From assembly GCA_913056455.1 (NCBI GenBank), contig CAJXMJ010000001.1, positions 1,178,001-1,242,000 on the forward strand: a stretch of 64,000 bases of DNA. The letters are read 5' to 3'. Of the stretch, positions 4,774 to 64,000 are shown one piece after another. Source of the DNA: an uncultured Fodinibius sp. (lineage in GTDB: Bacteria > Bacteroidota > Rhodothermia > Balneolales > Balneolaceae). The notes beneath the pieces are model-generated. The model was not told the origin of the DNA and searched no databases. It saw only the letters and a program-made list of their open reading frames with translations. Positions within the stretch are counted from its first letter, which is position 1, and every line of letters starts with the position of its first letter. Position numbers and translations under genes: made by a program.

Positions 4774-5856
4774 CTATCCCTCCTCCATCACTGCATTTAG
4801 CTTATCAAGATTATCCTGCACGCGCAATGCTTCAATAACCTCTTCAATCTCTCCCTTCATAATATCTTCGAGATTATACAGCGTTAAATTAATACGATGG
4901 TCGGTCAAACGGCTTTGTGGAAAATTATAGGTCCTAATTTTGGCACTTCGATCACCCGTTGAAATTTGACTATTCCTCTCTTCTTCACGCTCCTTCCGCA
5001 GCTTTTCCTCTTCCTTTTCATATAGCTTTGAACGCAACATCTTCATGGCTTTATCCTTATTCTGGTGCTGCGATCGTTCCTGCTGACATTCAACCACAAC
5101 GCCACTGGGTTCATGCGTTAAACGTACAGCTGAATCCGTCTTATTTACGTGCTGACCTCCCGCTCCACTGGCCCGAAACGTATCTACGCGGATATCCGAC
5201 ATATTTACGTCTATATCTACCTCTTCTGCCTCTGGCAATACTGCAACGGTGGCAGCAGAAGTGTGAACCCGTCCCTGTGTTTCTGTTTCCGGAACTCGTT
5301 GAACGCGATGTACGCCGCTCTCATATTTCATCTTTCCATAGACCTCTTCGCCTTCCAGCTCAAAGTTAAGTTCTTTGTATCCCCCTTTTGTAGATTCACT
5401 GAGCCCCAGAATGTTTAATTTCCAGCCTTTTTTGTCTGCATAACGTCTATACATATCAAAAAGGTCTCCAACAAAAATAGCAGCCTCATCACCGCCGGTA
5501 CCAGCACGTAATTCGACAATGACATTCTTTGAATCATCCGGATCTTTAGGAATTAACTTAAACTTGATGGCTTCTTCCAACTCTTCCAATTGTGGTTTGA
5601 GTTCTTCCAGCTCGAGTTCGGCCATCTCGGTAATTTCCTCGTCATCGCCTTCTTCTATCAGCTCCTTGTTGCCCGCAATTTGATTTTTAGTCTCTTTCCA
5701 TTTGTCATAGAGCTCCACTAATTCCTTCAAATCACTATGTTCTTTAGTAAGTTCTGTATAGCGATCTGGATCATCATACACCGACGGATCGCTCATTGCC
5801 GCCGTTACTTCTTCAAATCGTTCTTTGACCTGTTCTAACTTTGCCTCAATATCCAT
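4774..5856 (-). CDS. prfA: Peptide chain release factor 1
   Basis: Class I release factor ending translation at UAA and UAG. The 360 residues match the family. The peptidyl-tRNA hydrolysis motif GGQ is at 233-235, and the tripeptide anticodon loop reads PET (189-191), the PxT form of RF1 rather than the SPF form of RF2. An acidic coiled-coil N-terminal domain (residues 1-105) precedes the core. The gene is monocistronic and divergent from purK across about 170 AT-rich bases. Confidence 0.97.
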
Positions 5857-54841: not shown

Positions 54842-56125
54842 TTGGATAATCTCCTCAAACAAAATCAGAATCTGCAACAAGCAGTAAATGAACTAAAGGT
54901 TCTCAATGATATTGCAACAGCTATTTCTTCGCTCAACAAGGTGGAGGATATAATTGATCAAATAGTACTAAAATGTATCAAGCACCTTAAGGTTGAGGAA
55001 GGAACTGTTAGCCTGCTCAATGAAGATGAGAATTCAGAGGAATTCCATACAATGATTAGACATCGCGATACTTCTGCCTCTGAATTACCGATACACCTTG
55101 ACAGTAGACTTAAGGGATGGATGTTTAAAAACAGGTCTGTATTGATGAGTAACAACATCTATGAAGATCCTCGTTTTAGTTCGCTAAACAGTGATAAACA
55201 ACCATTTGATTCTATTCTTTGCGTGCCTTTAATAGTAAAAGACAAATTAATAGGCTATCTGGCTGTGTTTAATAAAAAGGAAAATACTTTTTTTACGGAT
55301 CAGGACAGGAGATTACTCTCAATCATTGCTTCCCAGTCGGCACAGGTCATAGAGAACGCCCGTCTATACGAAGAAGAAAAGGCCTTGATAGGATTGAAAA
55401 ACGAAATGAAAATGGCACAGGAGATTCAGATCAAATTACTCCCAGAGGAGACTCCACATATCAATGGAATTGAGATTGCCGCATTAAATAAACCAGCGAA
55501 GGAAGTGGGAGGTGATTACTATGATTTCTTGAAAGTAGATTCCAATAAATGGGGATTTTGTATAGGTGATATCACTGGTAAAGGAATGCCTGCAGCTCTT
55601 TTGATGGCAAATCTTCAGGCCACCTTTAGGAGTCAGGCTATAATTTCAAGGAAATGTAGCGAATGCCTCCGAGGAACAAACTATATGCTTTATCAAAGTA
55701 CTGAAGTAACAAAGTTTGCAACTTTTTTTTACGGTGTTTTGCATCAAGAAAATGGACAAACGATACTCTCCTATTCAAACGGCGGACACGATCCCCCGAT
55801 CTTATATAAGAAAGATACTAACCCCCAATTTTTGGAGGCCACCGGCTTGCTATTGGGAGTATTTGAGAGTAGTGAATATAGTGAAAACTCAATTAACTTA
55901 GATGCTGGCGATGTATTGTTTATGTACACCGATGGAATAACTGAGGCATTTAATAGTAAGGGAGTAGATTTTGGTCTTGACCGTTTAGTTGAACTGGTAG
56001 GAAAAAACAGGAATAGCTCGGCCGATGAAATCATGAACCTGGTTTTGCATAGTGTGGGGAACCATGTAGATGAGGCTCCTCCAAGCGATGATATTACTAT
56101 GATTATTATTAAAATTAAGCAATAA
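54842..56125 (+). CDS. GAF domain and SpoIIE/PP2C-type serine phosphatase
   Basis: 427 residues. A coiled coil (1-25) leads to a GAF sensor domain (about 25-175), followed by a linker helix LKNEMKMAQEIQIKLLPE and the PPM phosphatase (195-427). Metal residues are D225 in GGDYYDF, D243 in GDITGKGMPAALL and the late MYTDGITEAF. TTG start. It is the RsbU/SpoIIE type that often controls anti-sigma partner switching, but no anti-sigma gene is here. It is divergent from a kinase gene, suggesting opposing roles. Confidence 0.92.
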   Translation: MDNLLKQNQNLQQAVNELKVLNDIATAISSLNKVEDIIDQIVLKCIKHLKVEEGTVSLLNEDENSEEFHTMIRHRDTSASELPIHLDSRLKGWMFKNRSVLMSNNIYEDPRFSSLNSDKQPFDSILCVPLIVKDKLIGYLAVFNKKENTFFTDQDRRLLSIIASQSAQVIENARLYEEEKALIGLKNEMKMAQEIQIKLLPEETPHINGIEIAALNKPAKEVGGDYYDFLKVDSNKWGFCIGDITGKGMPAALLMANLQATFRSQAIISRKCSECLRGTNYMLYQSTEVTKFATFFYGVLHQENGQTILSYSNGGHDPPILYKKDTNPQFLEATGLLLGVFESSEYSENSINLDAGDVLFMYTDGITEAFNSKGVDFGLDRLVELVGKNRNSSADEIMNLVLHSVGNHVDEAPPSDDITMIIIKIKQ

Positions 56126-56233
56126 CCAATTTTCAGACCCAAATATCCCTTAATATCTAATAGAATATATTAGATCAGATAATCCCCGAAATCTCTATCC
56201 CCCCTATTTCAGCATATTTCTACCGGAAATAAA

Positions 56234-56264
56234 AAAAGCCCGCTGCACTACACAGCGGGCTTTT
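56234..56264. terminator. Bidirectional rho-independent terminator
   Basis: AAAAGCCCGCTG (56234-56245) and CAGCGGGCTTTT (56253-56264) pair perfectly around a 7-base loop. It lies between the convergent phosphatase (plus) and nrdJ (minus) stops, with an A-tract on one side and a T-tract on the other, so it serves both. Confidence 0.9.
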
Positions 56265-56293
56265 GCAATTGAGTTATTTAACCTTAGTAATAT

Positions 56294-59200
56294 TTATGAG
56301 CAACCAGTGGTTGATCCACAGGTAATGCACTTCTGACAAGTTCCGTTTCGGACCATTGTCATACTACCACATTCGGGACAGGAATCACCGGTATAGCCAA
56401 GCTCTTTGGCTTTTTCGTAATCACTCTGGTAACTACTGTCATCAGCTGTGGTTTGTGCTTGCTTAGTTGGTTGCGATTCAACTACAGTTTCCGGTTGATC
56501 TGGGCTTCCATTGTTATTCGGCTCCTGCGAAGTGTCTTCCCGATTCGCCTTTTCCTTCGACTGTTTCTCCTCTTCAGAAGGACGAATTTTGCGTGTCATT
56601 ACTTCTTCGGCAGGAACATGGGCCAGATCATCGCGACCAAGGTATGTTACAGCAAGCTCGCGGAAAATATAGTCGATCACCGAGGTAGTCATCTTAATAT
56701 GCGGACTTCCGCTAACGGTTCCACTCGGCTCAAACTTGGTGAACGTAAATGCATCCACAAATTCTTCGAGCGGTACGCCGTGTTGCAGGCCAAGTGATAT
56801 TGCAATGGCAAAACAGTTCGTCAAGCTTCGGAATGCGGCTCCCTCTCGATGCATATCAAGAAAGATTTCACCGAGCTGACCATTTTCATATTCACCGGTT
56901 CGCAGATATACGCTCTGCCCTCCAATTTTCACCTTTTGGGTATATCCATTTCGGCGGCTGGGCAAGCGCTTGCGCTCAGCCACATATTTGTGAACAATCC
57001 GCTCAGCTGTTTCTACCACCTTGTCTTGTTCTGCCTTCGTTTCTTCATCCAGATCTTCTTCGTCCAGATCTTCAAAGACATCACTGAGACTATTCAGCGG
57101 CTGACTTAACTTGGAACCATCACGATACAAGGCATTGGCCTTCAGCATCAACTCCCAGGATTCCATATAGGCATCCTTGAAGTCTTCAACCGTAGCTTCA
57201 TTCGGCAAGTTGATCGTTTTCGAAATAGCGCCCGAAACAAACGGTTGGGCAGCTGCCATCATGCGAATGTGTCCTTTAGGCTTGATGTAACGTGTTCCGA
57301 TGCGCCCACAGCGATTTGCACAATCAAAGACCGGCAGATGCTCATCTTTCAGATGCGGAGCTCCTTCAACCGTCATTGTACCACAGACATAATCATTAGC
57401 CTCCTGAATCTCTTCTTTAGAAAATCCAAGATGCTTGAGAATATCAAACTGAGGATTGGCCAGCTGCTCATCAGAAAGACCGAGCTCTTCCTTGCAGAAG
57501 TCTTCGCCCAGGGTCCACTGATTAAAAGCAAACTTGATCTCAAAACTGCTTGGCAGCGCTTCTTCAATGGCTTCAAGCTGTTTGTCGCCAAATCCCTTTT
57601 CGCGGAGACTTTCCTCATTGATATGCGGACAGCCATCCAGCGAGCCATGACCTTTGGCATAGTTAATAATTTCTTCACGCTCTTTAGGACTGTATCCCAG
57701 ATTCTGGAGTGCTCTAGGAACACATTGATTGATAATCTTAAAGTGTCCGCCACCGGCAAGTTTCTTGAACTTCACCAGTGCAAAGTCTGGTTCAATGCCC
57801 GTTGTATCGCAGTCCATCACCAGACCAATTGTTCCGGTTGGAGCAATTACGGTAACCTGAGCATTGCGATAGCCGTGCTTCTCTCCCATCTTTACGGCTT
57901 CGTCAGAATCTTCGCGAGCAGCCTTTAGCAAGTTATCGGGACATTCATTCGCATCAATGCCCATGGGCTTTACCGTCAGATCCTCGTACTCATCAGGATC
58001 AACATTATAAGCCGCACGTTTATGATTTCGAACGACTTTGAGCATCGGCTCTTTATTCGCTTCGAATCGCTCAAAAGTTCCAAGCTCTTTGGCCATTTCG
58101 GCACTGGTCTTATAGGCATTCATGTGGATAATACTCATCAATCCACCGGCAATTGCACATCCTTCATCACTGTCATACGGCACGCCCTGTACCATCAGTG
58201 CTGCACCGAGATTAGCAAATCCAAGCCCAAGCGTACGATATTTGTATGAGAGATCTGCAATCTCTTTGGATGGGAACTGTGCCATCAGAACAGAGATCTC
58301 AAGCACCACCGTCCACATGCGCGATGCATTACGGAGCGATTCAACATCAAATTCCTCACATTTATCCGTCTTGAAATACTTCATCAAGTTTAACGAAGCC
58401 AAGTTACAAGCCGTATTGTCGAGGAACATATATTCCGAGCATGGATTACTTCCATTAATCGGTCCGTCATTGGGGCATGTATGCCACTCGTTGATAGTAT
58501 CGTGATATTGTGCTCCCGGATCGGCGCATGCCCAGGCTGCATTTGAGATCTGATCCCAGAGTTCACGGGCCGGCATTGTCTTGTGGGGTTCAGGCTCACG
58601 TCCTTCTTCGGCAGCCTTTCGCTTCTCAGTTCTCCAATACAGATCCCACTCATCATCATTTTTGACGGCTCGCATGAATTTATTAGGAATACGAACAGAG
58701 TTGTTCGAATTTTGTCCACTCACCGTGCGATAGGCTTCGGAATCCCAGTCCGTATCATAAGTTTCAAACTCCAGATCGGTATACCCTTGTGCCGCCAGCT
58801 GAACAACACGTTCTATATAATTGAGTGGTACCTGATCTTGCTTAGCCTCCTTAATAGCTTTGCCAAGCTCTTTGTTTTTTACAGGATCACGACTTACCGC
58901 ACCGTTGAACGTCCGTCCGTCTATTTCTACCGGCTTATTGCAAAGCTGGATAATTTTCTTGAGATGCTTCTCCAATATTTTGGAACCAGCCACCATGGAA
59001 GCGACTTTTTGCTCTTCCCGGACTTTCCAATTCACATACTCCTCAATATCGGGATGGTCAAGATCAAGGGTTACCATTTTGGCTGCGCGCCGCGTGGTAC
59101 CGCCCGACTTAATAGCACCTGCTGCTTTATCCCCAATTTTAAGGAAGCTCATCAACCCGGATGATTTACCGCCACCGCTCAAGGGCTCTCCCTCACCGCG

Positions 59201-59923
59201 GATCTTGGAAAAGTTACTTCCTGTTCCGGATCCATACTTAAAGAGACGTGCTTCACGAACCCAAAGATCCATAATTCCACCCTCGTTAACGAGGTTATCA
59301 TCAATGCTCTGGATAAAGCAGGCATGTGGCTGTGGATGGGAGTAGGCATCGTCAGATTCTGTTAATTCTCCTGTTTTTCCATCTACATAGTAGTGCCCTT
59401 GCGACGGACCATTAATGCCATACGCCCAATGCAAACCGGTATTAAACCATTGGGGACTATTTGGGGCCGCCATTTGATTGGCCAACATATAACTAAGCTC
59501 ATCGTAAAAAACCTTTGCATCTTTTTCAGAATCAAAATAATCATGCTTCCATCCCCAATACGTCCAACAACCTGCAAGGCGGTGAAAAACCTGGCGACTG
59601 TCATACTCTCCGCCATAATAATCATCTTCATCTATCCCTTCCTTTTTCATGGCTTTCTCATCAGCTTCTGATCGCTGCAACCATTCCGGTACTCCCTTTT
59701 CTTTTACTTTCTTTGTGATCTGTGGGACGCCCGCTTTACGGAAATATTTTTGGGCAATCACGTCGGTAGATACCTGTGACCACGTTTCAGGTACAATCAA
59801 CTCTTCCATTAAAAATACGGTCGACCCGTCAGGGTTTTTTATCTCTGATCTTCGACTCTCAAAATCCATGTCTCCAAATGGACTATCCCACTCCTCTTGT
59901 GTATAAAATCGTGTAAATTTCAT
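56294..59923 (-). CDS. nrdJ: Adenosylcobalamin-dependent ribonucleotide reductase (class II)
   Basis: 1209 residues reducing ribonucleotides to deoxyribonucleotides with coenzyme B12. Hallmarks: [19 protein letters not shown] and [19 protein letters not shown] near the active site, [10 protein letters not shown], and [20 protein letters not shown]. The length fits the long vitamin B12-dependent NrdJ. The C-terminal 28 residues form a zinc-finger-like region, CPECGS...CQKCITCG, used in these enzymes. It stands alone with a complex upstream region of DnaA boxes and 31-bp repeats, and lies beside cobalamin uptake genes. Confidence 0.96.
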
Positions 59924-60054
59924 ATGACTAACTCCGGTTTACTTTAATAATTTTTGACTTAACTGGTAGGCTCTGAAAAAGCACATATCATCTCGTTTTC
60001 TTCTAATTAAATATAAAGGAATGCCACTATGGAGCAAGCCAAAAAGGCCAAAAC

Positions 60055-60275
60055 TTTTCCACAAAATGCAGAAGTTATCCACAATTAACTAAAGAATATG
60101 ACTGAAAAATTGCGGACTTTTTTATCCGGTATTAGAAAAATTGCGGACTTTTTTATCCGGTATTAGAAAAATTGTGGATAACTTTTATCAATCCTGTAAA
60201 GGAAACCAAAGTTCCACTGAAAGGTGCTTTCAAAACCTTACCTTTTATTGTTCAATACGTTGCAATTTATCCAAA
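60055..60275. promoter_or_regulatory. Cluster of DnaA-box-like sequences
   Basis: Two sequences match the DnaA box TTATCCACA exactly: 60075-60083 on plus and 60173-60181 (TGTGGATAA) on minus. One-mismatch boxes are TTTTCCACA at 60055-60063 and TTATCCAAA at 60267-60275. Related TTATCCGGT occurs in both 31-bp repeats. DnaA control of ribonucleotide reductase genes is known in other bacteria, so this may time nrdJ expression to replication; a replication origin is a second possibility. Confidence 0.6.
60104..60165. repeat. Two tandem 31-bp repeats with a third partial copy
   Basis: Bases 60104-60134 and 60135-60165 are identical 31-base units in direct tandem. A third unit begins at 60166 with the same GAAAAATTG and then turns into a perfect DnaA box (TTGTGGATAAC in place of TTGCGGAC). 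Each unit holds TTGCGGAC and TTATCCGG, near-inverted variants of the DnaA site. The arrangement looks like an iteron-type binding array. Confidence 0.85.
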
Positions 60276-60280
60276 TAAAA

Positions 60281-60313
60281 GGCCTCCCATCATCAGTAAT
60301 ATGAAAGGAGGCC
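60281..60313 (-). terminator. Terminator of btuB
   Basis: GGCCTCC (60281-60287) and GGAGGCC (60307-60313) pair, with a 19-base loop. On the minus strand the stem is followed by TTTTATTT. It is 21 bases past the btuB stop. Confidence 0.75.
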
Positions 60314-60333
60314 AAAACTGTTAGGATTTCGTT

Positions 60334-62535
60334 CTACAGCTGATATTGTAATTTAATAAAATATCCTCGACCTCGGGTCTTATAACCGTTAATCTCTTGA
60401 TAGTCAGTATCAAATAGATTCTCAACTTTCAATAGGGCCGATAAATTTTCCGTGACCGAATAGTCCACTGTTGCATTCGTTACGTTATAACCCGAGATAT
60501 CATTGCGATCCAGGGCCCCATAGGGTCCCAAGCTGGCACTGTAATAAACATCATCTCTGGAACCGACATATCGGGAATCGACTTTAAAGCGCAATCTGTC
60601 AGTTGCTAAATAGGTTGCGCTGATAAAAGCATTTACAGAGGGGCGTCGGGTTAAGCCTTCAATTTCTTTCTCCTCGGTTACATAAGCTCCGCTCTCATAT
60701 ATTTGCACATGATTTCCCCCCGTATATGCTGGGTCAATATCCTCCGGCGAAAAGGTTATTGTTGATCGGGTAAGCGATGCATTTCCCTGCAGATTTATTT
60801 TAGGAGTTATTCTGGCAGAGGCCGAAACTTCAAGCCCTGATATCTCCTGTCCGGAAGCATTGATATACGTGTCACCGAGATAGTCTGAATCAGGAAAGCT
60901 TGCACTTAAATTTTCAATCGCTGTGTTACCATCCCATAGGTACACGTATTCAATCACATCATCTACTACTGTTTTAAAAGCAGAAAACTCAAAAGAAATC
61001 TGATTACCAATCTCTTGCTTCCATCCTACCTCATAGGATATCGATGACTCGGGATTCAGATTCTCATTGCCACGATTTGTATAGCTGCCTGCACTTTGTG
61101 ACGGCGAATACAGCTGGTAGAGTGACGGTGCATTAAACCCACTGGTGACAGCTCCGTATAAAAGTGTCGATTCTGTAAGCTGAAGCTTGGGATTCACCTC
61201 ATAAGTAAAGTGAGACCCAAACTCATCGTGATGAACCAATCTTCCGCCCAATCCCAATGAAAACAACTCTAATTGATCGTTAATCAATCCTCCATTAAGA
61301 GTAGTCTGAGCATAGCCGTTATATATTATTTCCTTCAGGCCCAACGAATCCAAATCCGTTGTTGATTCATAAACACCAAATTGCGATCGGCTGTAGGTAT
61401 AGTTACGAGTAGACATCGTTTGTCGTGATGCAGAAGCACCGGCCACAAATCGGATATGATCCCCATCTATGACAGCCTTCAGTTCATTTTCCCAGAGCGA
61501 ACCCTCGGCGTTAAGTTCGGTATAAATTCCATCATAGGTACCACCGGAACTAACAAGTGAAGAATCGTTTACGAAGTCCCTGTTTAAATCTGAGTAAGCG
61601 CCTTGGAATTCTATAGCTGCCTGGTCGGATAATTCCACACCGCCTCCAAAATTAAACAGGTCGCGCTCAAATTCGGTGTAAGCATTACTATCATCTTCAT
61701 AACCCCCCTGATCAACATCACTGTGCTGATCCACACGTCGATAAGATGCATATAAATCATACTGGTCCGTCGAATATCCAAGTTTACCAACTAAATCAAG
61801 TTTATTAAAATCATCCTGATCTTGCGGATTAAAGGTATTGGCATCGGATACCGTATCAATGGTTGCATCCAAGCCGTTGGCCAACTGAAAGTTGGCACCT
61901 ACATTCGCATACCATCCATTCTCTGTAGTATAATTGGCAAAAAGACTATTAGTCGTAGAATACGTTCCTTCGCCAAATCGTCCGTGTTTGGTCTGTGCAT
62001 TTATGTTAAATCCTTCTCCGCCCCTCTTTTTTGTGATAATATTGACAACTCCTCCAATAGCTGAAGATCCATAAAGCGTACTGTGCGATCCGCGGACAAT
62101 TTCTATCCGCTTTATTCCAGTAAGTGAAAGCTCCGAAAGGTCAATGGAATTATTATTGGTAGAGGGATCACTGATTCGAACGCCATCAATCAATACAACA
62201 GAATGATTGGAATTAGCATTACGGATAAATCCCTGCTGTAATGAACCCGGGGTTTGCCCCGCTCCTATCATGTGCACACTCTGCTGTTGCGCCAATAACT
62301 CACTGACGTTTGTATAAACAGCATTCTGAATTTCATCCTGTGAAATAACAGTCACATTGCGCCCCACCGATTGTGGCGACTGTTCGTACTTGCTGGCACT
62401 AATAATAATTTCGTCCAGCTCATAGATTGTGGTATCGGCTTCTACATTATGCTGTTGAGCCATTGTTGGCGTGGTAATCCAAAGAAAAGCCATCAAGGCA
62501 AATAGCCCTGAGGATAATCGTTTAATAGTGTTCAT
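60334..62535 (-). CDS. btuB: TonB-dependent outer-membrane receptor, BtuB-type cobalamin transporter
   Basis: 733 residues: signal peptide (to about 26, ending TMAQ), a TonB-box-like ELDEIIISASK, a plug domain (about 50-160, with VLIDGVRISDP and RIEIVRGSHSTLYGSSAIGG) and a 22-strand barrel to the C-terminus (GYFIKLQYQL). The family alone is not substrate-specific, but the cobalamin riboswitch in its leader and the btuCD-like genes point to vitamin B12. ATG start. Confidence 0.88.
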   Translation of the reverse strand: MNTIKRLSSGLFALMAFLWITTPTMAQQHNVEADTTIYELDEIIISASKYEQSPQSVGRNVTVISQDEIQNAVYTNVSELLAQQQSVHMIGAGQTPGSLQQGFIRNANSNHSVVLIDGVRISDPSTNNNSIDLSELSLTGIKRIEIVRGSHSTLYGSSAIGGVVNIITKKRGGEGFNINAQTKHGRFGEGTYSTTNSLFANYTTENGWYANVGANFQLANGLDATIDTVSDANTFNPQDQDDFNKLDLVGKLGYSTDQYDLYASYRRVDQHSDVDQGGYEDDSNAYTEFERDLFNFGGGVELSDQAAIEFQGAYSDLNRDFVNDSSLVSSGGTYDGIYTELNAEGSLWENELKAVIDGDHIRFVAGASASRQTMSTRNYTYSRSQFGVYESTTDLDSLGLKEIIYNGYAQTTLNGGLINDQLELFSLGLGGRLVHHDEFGSHFTYEVNPKLQLTESTLLYGAVTSGFNAPSLYQLYSPSQSAGSYTNRGNENLNPESSISYEVGWKQEIGNQISFEFSAFKTVVDDVIEYVYLWDGNTAIENLSASFPDSDYLGDTYINASGQEISGLEVSASARITPKINLQGNASLTRSTITFSPEDIDPAYTGGNHVQIYESGAYVTEEKEIEGLTRRPSVNAFISATYLATDRLRFKVDSRYVGSRDDVYYSASLGPYGALDRNDISGYNVTNATVDYSVTENLSALLKVENLFDTDYQEINGYKTRGRGYFIKLQYQL

Positions 62536-62664
62536 AATTAAGTATTAAGGTTACAAATGATGATTTATTCATCACTCGTACCTTTGGGTATAAAACTTGG
62601 AAGGTATAAATACGCTCTGATAGCCAGAAACGACATTTACTCTTCGCTTTTCTCCCGAAAGCTA

Positions 62665-62890
62665 CGAATGCTGTGCGTTGGCAGGTCTTCTGGCTTGTTC
62701 CGCTTTTGACAACCTTCCCGTCCCATCCCGGTACAACCGAGAGAAACAGTGGTTCAAGAAAGATCAAAAGGTTATGGAACTCACAGCATCGGGGAATGCT
62801 CCGGATTTTCCCGAAAATTATCGAGAGCACCGGATTCCCTTTTAATCCCATCCCGAAAATATGTCGAGGATGGGAACCAATGCACGGGTC
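62665..62890 (-). promoter_or_regulatory. Cobalamin (vitamin B12) riboswitch
   Basis: The minus strand carries the B12 box AAGCCAGAAGACCTGCC (62696-62680) and, upstream of it, AAAAGGGAATCCGGTG (62843-62828), GATGCTGTGAGTTCC, an AACCACTG segment and CGGGAAGG, in the order of the class I cobalamin riboswitch. It lies in the 402-base leader between the btuD stop and btuB. About 130 bases from the B12 box to the btuB ATG form the expression platform; whether it acts by termination or by ribosome-site blocking is not clear. The outer limits are approximate. Confidence 0.93.
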
Positions 62891-62937
62891 GAAAATACGA
62901 GGCACACCGAATAAATCAAAACCTATTGGGATAATTT

Positions 62938-63957
62938 CTAATTCTTTCTCAATGCACCTAACAGATCTTTTATTGAGGAATAAGAATGCTCCTCCTTTTC
63001 TGAAATGATTTTCCACAAGAACGTTTCTTGCTTTGAATGAGCCTCAACCTTGAGAGACGTTCCATTCTTTTCGACCACCTCATAACCTTCACGCTCAAGT
63101 GCTCGTCGGGTCCAGAATACTGGGACAGCATCACCGGTTAAATAGATAGGCTCTTTATCCGGATTATGCAGTGTAAAAGAGCCAGTACTACGATCAAAGT
63201 CAAAGCTGTCTTTTTCAAAAACAGCCTCAAAGGTGCCATCTAACACAAGGTCTTCGGGTGTCCCTGTTATTACTTTTCCATCACGACTAATGAGCCACAA
63301 GGTATCGGCAGCCTTGAGAGCCAAATCTAACTCATGGGTCGATAACAAAATACCCTTTTTGGTATGATGGGCCAGCTTTCGCAACAAGCGAATAATTTCT
63401 ACCCGGTTCGGCAGATCCAGGTGAGCTGTAGGTTCGTCGAGCAATACGGCAGAAGTATCTTGGGCCAGTGCCCGTGCAATCATTACTTTTTGCCGTTCAC
63501 CGTCACTGAGATGCAATACATCCCGGTCAACAAACTGTTCAATCCCCGCAGAGGCAATAGCCCATTCCACGATCTCTTCATCTTTTTTATTAAGCGATCC
63601 AAACCAACCGGTATAGGGCGATCGCCCAAAAGCCACTAATTCATATACACTGATGTTCCCTATCGTAATACGATCAGTCAAAACGGTACTTACTTTTTGC
63701 GCAATCGTTTTTACACCGAATTTATTCAACTGTTTACCGTTCAACAGGACCTCTCCATCCAATGGATAATGTAGGCCGGCCAGCGTTCGAATCAACGTAG
63801 ATTTTCCCGATCCATTGGGACCCAACAGGCACACAACTTGTCCACCCTGCAGCGCCACATTTATGTCGGAGGCCACAACCGTAGCAGACTTCCGTCCTTT
63901 TGGCGGAAATCCAATATCCAATTCGTTGGTCGATATGATGGAAGACTGTTTACTCAT
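62938..63957 (-). CDS. btuD: ABC transporter ATPase, FecE/BtuD type
   Basis: About 339 residues: cytosolic ATPase of a vitamin B12 or siderophore importer. Walker A GPNGSGKST, signature HLSDGERQKVMIARALAQ and Walker B AVLLDEPTAHLDLP are intact. The C-terminal ~80 residues after the ATPase core are an added domain seen in FCB-group members. I start at ATG 63957, which shares its A with the TGA stop of the upstream permease. The nearby riboswitch-btuB unit suggests cobalamin, though the riboswitch lies downstream and so does not control this gene. Confidence 0.87.
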   Translation of the reverse strand: MSKQSSIISTNELDIGFPPKGRKSATVVASDINVALQGGQVVCLLGPNGSGKSTLIRTLAGLHYPLDGEVLLNGKQLNKFGVKTIAQKVSTVLTDRITIGNISVYELVAFGRSPYTGWFGSLNKKDEEIVEWAIASAGIEQFVDRDVLHLSDGERQKVMIARALAQDTSAVLLDEPTAHLDLPNRVEIIRLLRKLAHHTKKGILLSTHELDLALKAADTLWLISRDGKVITGTPEDLVLDGTFEAVFEKDSFDFDRSTGSFTLHNPDKEPIYLTGDAVPVFWTRRALEREGYEVVEKNGTSLKVEAHSKQETFLWKIISEKEEHSYSSIKDLLGALRKN

Positions 63958-64000
63958 CAAAATGAAGCCTGCAGGTTTTTGCGCTGAATGATTACCCAGA
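63957..64000 (-). CDS. C-terminal end of a FecCD-family permease (partial)
   Basis: On the minus strand the last 44 bases read into a frame ending WVIIQRKNLQASF then TGA, with its A shared by the ATG of the ATPase gene (TGATG). A short basic tail after a hydrophobic helix (LIxRR-type) is the usual end of FecCD/BtuC permeases. The rest lies beyond the window. This is the expected partner of the downstream ATPase. Confidence 0.55.
   Translation of the reverse strand, partial: WVIIQRKNLQASF

Follow-up and report, generated by a model that had tools for sequence, protein, structure and literature searches.

The intergenic region at 59924-60333 of the window (the whole 64-kb stretch of DNA that was analysed) separates nrdJ, which encodes a class II, B12-dependent ribonucleotide reductase (RNR), from a TonB-dependent receptor gene, both of which are read from the minus strand (Table 1). 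Neither a match to a class I small subunit nor a class III enzyme was found in the source genome (3.28 Mb in 7 contigs, completeness 95.87%); NrdJ is therefore the only RNR found there. Domain search detected no ATP-cone in this protein. The receptor is probably a BtuB-like B12 uptake protein, a name that rests on the cobalamin riboswitch in front of its gene. Since the receptor gene ends in a strong hairpin, probably its terminator, nrdJ is probably carried on its own transcript. An Rfam scan of 56000-64000 returned nothing in the nrdJ leader, the only matches being the receptor riboswitch and two weak Thr_leader matches below the gathering score. The latter fall, on both strands, in a hairpin 3′ of nrdJ (56157-56293), which is probably a terminator.

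Table 1. Features of the nrdJ upstream region and its neighbours (positions in the window)
Feature	Position	Strand	Remarks
nrdJ, class II B12-dependent ribonucleotide reductase	56294..59923	-	PF02867, PF08471, PF12637
Predicted -7 element TATATTTAA	60007..60015	-	TAnnTT match
Predicted -33 element TTG	60035..60037	-	46 bp from box 1 start
Box 2 TTTTCCACA	60055..60063	+	One mismatch; TGTGGAAAA toward nrdJ; promoter-proximal; invariant in 56/56 Balneolaceae upstreams
Box 1 TTATCCACA	60075..60083	+	Exact; TGTGGATAA toward nrdJ; 20 bp from box 2
Two identical 31-bp tandem units	60104..60134 and 60135..60165	.	Spacer duplication, outside the conserved module
Partial third unit	60166..60178	.	12/13 bases alike; leads into distal box
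Distal inverted box TTATCCACA	60173..60181	-	Exact; 98 bp from box 1
TTATCCAAA	60267..60275	+	One mismatch; just beyond terminator hairpin of receptor gene
Hairpin 3′ of receptor gene, probable terminator	60281..60313	-	Fold z-score -4.34
TonB-dependent receptor gene	60334..62535	-	PF00593, PF07715
Cobalamin riboswitch before receptor gene	62663..62896	-	RF00174, 104.6 bits

The box cluster and the predicted promoter

A preliminary description of this region reported two exact DnaA boxes in opposite orientation together with two one-mismatch boxes. The exact boxes (box 1 and the distal inverted box) were confirmed, and both one-mismatch boxes are present as well; box 2 is conserved, whereas TTATCCAAA does not appear in the box lists of the nearest relatives, L002 and L003, and is probably a chance occurrence. 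It is the clustering of the boxes, and not their number in the window, that is unusual. Thus, TTATNCACA occurs 4 times in the window, which is not above chance (mean 3.06), and exact TTATCCACA is found 56 times in the genome, against 34 occurrences of the reversed pattern. Only 4 sites genome-wide hold at least two exact boxes in 400 bp: the nrdJ upstream region, C2:622119-622338, C3:245798-245903 (in front of dnaA) and C2:136652-137053. With one mismatch allowed, the source genome has a background of 0.16 boxes per 400 bp. A chance cluster was rejected on account of this background rate, the rarity of such clusters in the genome and the conservation across the Balneolaceae described below.

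The two identical 31-bp units are likewise real, and the third stretch does end in an exact box. The units had also been thought to hold box-like sequences; the best match inside a unit has 3 mismatches, which is roughly chance level. A single unit is present in L002 and L003, and no unit is recognisable in the nine other congeners aligned. An iteron array was rejected on the grounds that the units contain no box better than 3 mismatches and that the two nearest relatives have only one of them, and the proposed iteron-like binding of DnaA by the repeat falls with it. The extra 31 bp of the source genome is, judging from this comparison, a recent duplication of a spacer unit. The inverted distal box lies 67 bp from box 1 in 9 of the 12 genus members, 68 and 65 bp in two, and 98 bp in the source genome; because 31 bp corresponds to about three turns of DNA, the helical phase of the distal box is nearly kept. 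The sequence between these two boxes can hardly be aligned across the genus.

The promoter was searched for as TTG followed by TAnnTT at 20-24 bp, a pattern that we take to fit the -33/-7 promoter of Bacteroidota. In 55 of the 56 Balneolaceae nrdJ upstreams, the distance between the TTG and the box 1 start is 45 or 46 bp, and in all 56 TAnnTT follows 22-24 bp beyond the TTG. If transcription starts, as we assumed, ~12 bp past the TA of the predicted -7 element, the pair formed by boxes 1 and 2 is located at about -52 to -80.

Conservation of the direct box pair

Upstream regions of nrdJ were taken from relatives, a phylum sample and named genomes. Up to 400 bp was scanned, and identical 200-bp upstreams were counted once. 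Named loci were assigned to groups from their names and their identity to the G genomes. Among the named genomes, an uncultured Aliifodinibius MAG is nearest (L139; 98% NrdJ identity). It should be noted that L160, labelled only as a Bacteroidetes bacterium, was placed in the Balneolaceae on NrdJ identity once its boxes were already known, and that L068-L071 were left out as repeats of genomes already counted. NrdJ matches were obtained in 57 of 58 relatives, that of G031 being weak and to a class I enzyme, and three of the 58 yielded no nrdJ start: G019 (no N-terminus), G031 (weak class I matches) and G047 (no match).

The direct pair, defined as box 1 within one mismatch and box 2 as TTTTCCACA, 20 bp apart, is present in 56/56 non-identical Balneolaceae upstreams, with an exact box in 54/56. 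Thus, the conserved core is not the inverted exact pair emphasized in the preliminary description; what recurs upstream of nrdJ in the relatives is the direct pair, and not the 31-bp unit. The information content across the 56 upstreams is 1.95 bits per column in box 1 and 2.0 in box 2, compared with 0.62 in the 11-bp spacer and 0.22 in the upstream flank. The Balneolaceae genomes are not independent, yet by this measure their flanks have diverged while the putative DnaA sites were kept.

Within the spacer, a middle box at the 10-bp phase matches within three mismatches in 12/56 upstreams, 9 of which match within two (shuffled spacers: mean 0.13 within two mismatches, largest 2). Among the same 56, no middle box within 2 mismatches occurs in the source genus.

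The 22 nrdJ upstreams of other Balneolales carry at least one box in 20 cases, at least two in 19 and an exact box in 16, with the direct pair in just one; the boxes differ in number, spacing and orientation, and 2 of the 22 have none within one mismatch. Outside the Balneolales, the direct pair is found in 0/94 upstreams (0/47 same-phylum and 0/47 named). Two boxes occur in 2 of these 94, at least one within one mismatch in 14 and an exact box in 3; given the background rate, these groups are near background.

The exact two-box motif occurs at 35 places in 31 of the 58 genomes, and 31 of these places are at nrdJ; the reversed control gives 0. With two mismatches allowed, there are 27 places in the 12 genus members, compared with 3 control hits. 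Several Balneolaceae outside the genus also have a second, distal box group at ~-320 to -385 of nrdJ, which in some genomes again contains two boxes spaced 19-20 bp and, close by, one in the opposite orientation.

DnaA boxes elsewhere in the genome and at other RNR genes

The alternative that the nrdJ cluster is part of a replication origin draws on the grouping of boxes in both orientations. Around nrdJ, however, GC skew does not change: each of the nine 20-kb blocks between 1138 and 1318 kb of C1 has a negative value. On another contig, at C2:~622,000 (L031:5983-6339), 12 boxes within one mismatch are packed into ~360 bp between purM and dtd (genes read from protein sequences), and the skew per 20 kb changes sign, with values between -0.04 and -0.08 on one flank and between +0.04 and +0.15 on the opposite one. 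This site, away from dnaA, is probably oriC, and box-like repeats are present at the corresponding place in two congeners (L260 and L261). We therefore consider an origin at nrdJ, as suggested earlier, to be wholly improbable.

Five boxes precede dnaA (L033:6799-7067; G000:C3), which suggests dnaA autoregulation. Both this cluster and the oriC candidate are made of the same 9-mers as the nrdJ boxes. DnaA is over the cut-off in 56/58 relatives, and the DnaA of the source genome can be matched to solved DnaA chains, among which is 1j1v, an entry of the DNA-binding domain. In G033, an exact box pair is located upstream of gyrB and points away from it (L252:2992-3020).

Matches to the class I small subunit were found in 23 of the 58 relatives; promoters of the 13 strong matches were examined, and 10 weak ones were left out. 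All 13 nrdB promoters contain box 2 (one mismatch) and, 20 bp from it, a second box with one to three mismatches. In this comparison box 2 was picked by hand and the box at 20 bp was the test: it averages 1.7 mismatches versus 6.9 at other offsets, and the 20-bp offset is best or tied best in 13/13. In 12 of the 13 operons a cobalamin riboswitch follows the boxes, and in six of those 12 (L240-L245) metE lies between the riboswitch and nrdB (MetE domains were checked for L242). TTGA is found 16 bp from box 2 in 11 of the 12 riboswitch-bearing promoters and is missing from one. G031 has no NrdJ and no riboswitch match at its class I nrdB; there, the distance between box 2 and TTGA is 25 bp, which is that of nrdJ promoters (45 minus 20). 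Because this nrdJ-type distance precedes its nrdB, class I looks to have taken over the nrdJ promoter in G031.

A third kind of RNR gene with boxes is a very distant class II enzyme from same-class genomes outside the order, presumably Rhodothermales (14 genomes, of which 11 were fetched and 10 scanned; PF08471 was checked for two). A reverse-oriented box within one mismatch is present in 10/10 scanned upstreams, which come from four families; the number expected per region from the rest of each locus is 0.00-0.34. The box is exact in 5/10, L275 has only TTACCCACA, and in three upstreams from a single family TTGTCCACA occurs twice at a 22-bp interval. L269, which has TTTTCCACA at 5758, was left out of the scan as its start is uncertain. 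In a quick tree, these proteins form a very long branch from the Balneolales NrdJ, the sister group of which is the NrdJ of Ignavibacteria (SH-aLRT 98). The Ignavibacteria upstreams lack the pair and the distant class II genes have boxes; the presence of boxes therefore goes with the lineage of the genomes rather than with that of NrdJ. The putative DnaA module thus tracks RNR function rather than one gene, with boxes at three kinds of RNR gene in the lineage.

In genus members, the nrdJ promoter has five additional near-copies, comprising the box pair and -33/-7-like elements: L249/L262 (G004:C16), L251/L263 (G006:C1), L250/L259 (G004:C32), L257 (G002:C1) and L258 (G005:C1). Each has a GC-rich hairpin within ~300 bp after it. 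One precedes a Pycsar cyclase and a PycTM effector beside an integrase and tRNAs; another precedes MazG, two ThsB-like TIR genes and SLATT genes. The nrdJ-type promoter may serve defence islands. A 15-base leader motif of two defence-island copies occurs at 3 places in 34 genomes.

A putative DnaA-regulated promoter and its relation to known systems

In our opinion, the nrdJ upstream region is best explained, and with good probability, as a DnaA-regulated promoter of the cell's RNR, the boxes being putative DnaA sites. DnaA would bind the direct pair immediately upstream of the predicted -33 element, where it would most likely aid RNA polymerase. The inverted distal box, with its helical phase kept, may join by looping or cooperative binding. 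Expression of the RNR would then follow the amount and nucleotide state of DnaA, such that dNTP supply tracks initiation. A link of this sort at a class II RNR had been raised in the preliminary description, and it gains from the present data: the boxes are positioned such that they could provide it and are kept without exception in the sampled Balneolaceae.

With the pair at about -52 to -80, if the start assumption holds, activation is favoured and repression is its main rival. A site upstream of the -33 element at a fixed distance is more usual for activators, and the nrdJ pair is placed in this way. A reading in which DnaA is chiefly a repressor that covers the promoter by spreading out of the pair, and so lowers RNR at high DnaA-ATP, nevertheless has a precedent, since high DnaA-ATP represses nrdAB in E. 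coli according to the available text of PMC8203912; we regard it as unlikely, though deserving of some weight. The boxes are among the few clusters of the genome and include a distal inverted box with kept spacing, as might be expected of a DnaA titration or reactivation site (datA- or DARS-like) situated beside nrdJ by accident. The fixed distance to the predicted promoter and the recurrence of boxes at other RNR genes make such an accident very improbable.

Spacing bears on the identity of the regulator. According to the accessible part of PMC11317965, the DnaA of E. coli favours boxes with 2-3 bp between them, and at purH its binding suffered when the spacing was widened. The gap at nrdJ is 11 bp, so the site is not a double box of the E. 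coli type, and another binding mode or weak intervening sites would be needed. This gap and the invariance of box 2, always TTTTCCACA, could be taken to indicate that a regulator other than DnaA binds the motif in this lineage. That possibility we also rate as slight, since the oriC candidate and the cluster in front of dnaA are built of these 9-mers too, and NrdR is over the cut-off in 0/58 genomes. NrdR was also not matched in the source genome and was over the cut-off in 0/148 phylum-sample genomes. Loss of NrdR as a sufficient cause of the module was rejected, because the phylum sample has no NrdR over the cut-off, yet the 47 same-phylum nrdJ upstreams from outside the class lack the pair.

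Returning to the preferred reading of a DnaA-regulated promoter, since no NrdR was found and no ATP-cone was detected in NrdJ, replication state may act on dNTP supply chiefly through DnaA. The comparison of loci suggests that the supply of DNA precursors is wired to replication whichever RNR is used. A wider proposal, which we offer tentatively and hold to be possible rather than probable, is that across the class (Balneolales and other families) dNTP synthesis has DnaA as its constant master switch, irrespective of RNR class. RNR genes, those of class I as well as two class II types that are very distant from each other, would have been exchanged behind a single DnaA promoter module or newly connected to it; B12 supply would pick the enzyme via the riboswitch, while DnaA would set the level. 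The mobile defence islands of the genus would have copied the promoter and could thereby sense replication state. Because RNR classes seem to have been exchanged behind a single promoter geometry, one can test whether it is the regulator, rather than the enzyme, that selection preserves.

Regulation by NrdR, which acts in E. coli too, has in common with the present case the transcriptional control of RNR at the promoter; it differs in that NrdR was not found in the source genome or its relatives. In Streptomyces, nrdABS is reportedly a class I RNR operon under a cobalamin riboswitch. Twelve relatives share with it a cobalamin riboswitch before class I nrd genes; unlike in Streptomyces, the promoter of the riboswitch leader in these relatives carries a DnaA-box pair, and six have metE in between.

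The closest parallel is E. coli nrdAB (class Ia), which also has DnaA boxes upstream of an RNR gene. In the available text of PMC8203912, nrdAB is described as regulated by DnaA in E. coli, and such regulation is proposed for B. subtilis and C. crescentus. In E. coli, one exact and one 2-mismatch box lie at -162 and -150 from the start of nrdA, that is, 12 bp start to start and along the gene, whereas the nrdJ boxes are 20 bp apart, run against the gene and are invariant in the family; furthermore, the nrdJ module belongs to a class II enzyme in a genome in which no NrdR was found. DnaA ChIP-seq peaks occur at E. coli nrdA and nrdD (PMC11317965), the latter (class III) being a second RNR class with DnaA binding; class II is not among the targets given in the accessible part of that source. 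A literature search, thin on subscription journals, found no earlier report of DnaA control of a class II RNR, nor any work on DnaA boxes in Bacteroidetes or on DnaA in Balneolaceae. DnaA control of the class Ia RNR and DnaA binding at the class III RNR are thus known from E. coli, and the class II version, here a putative one, appears to be new.
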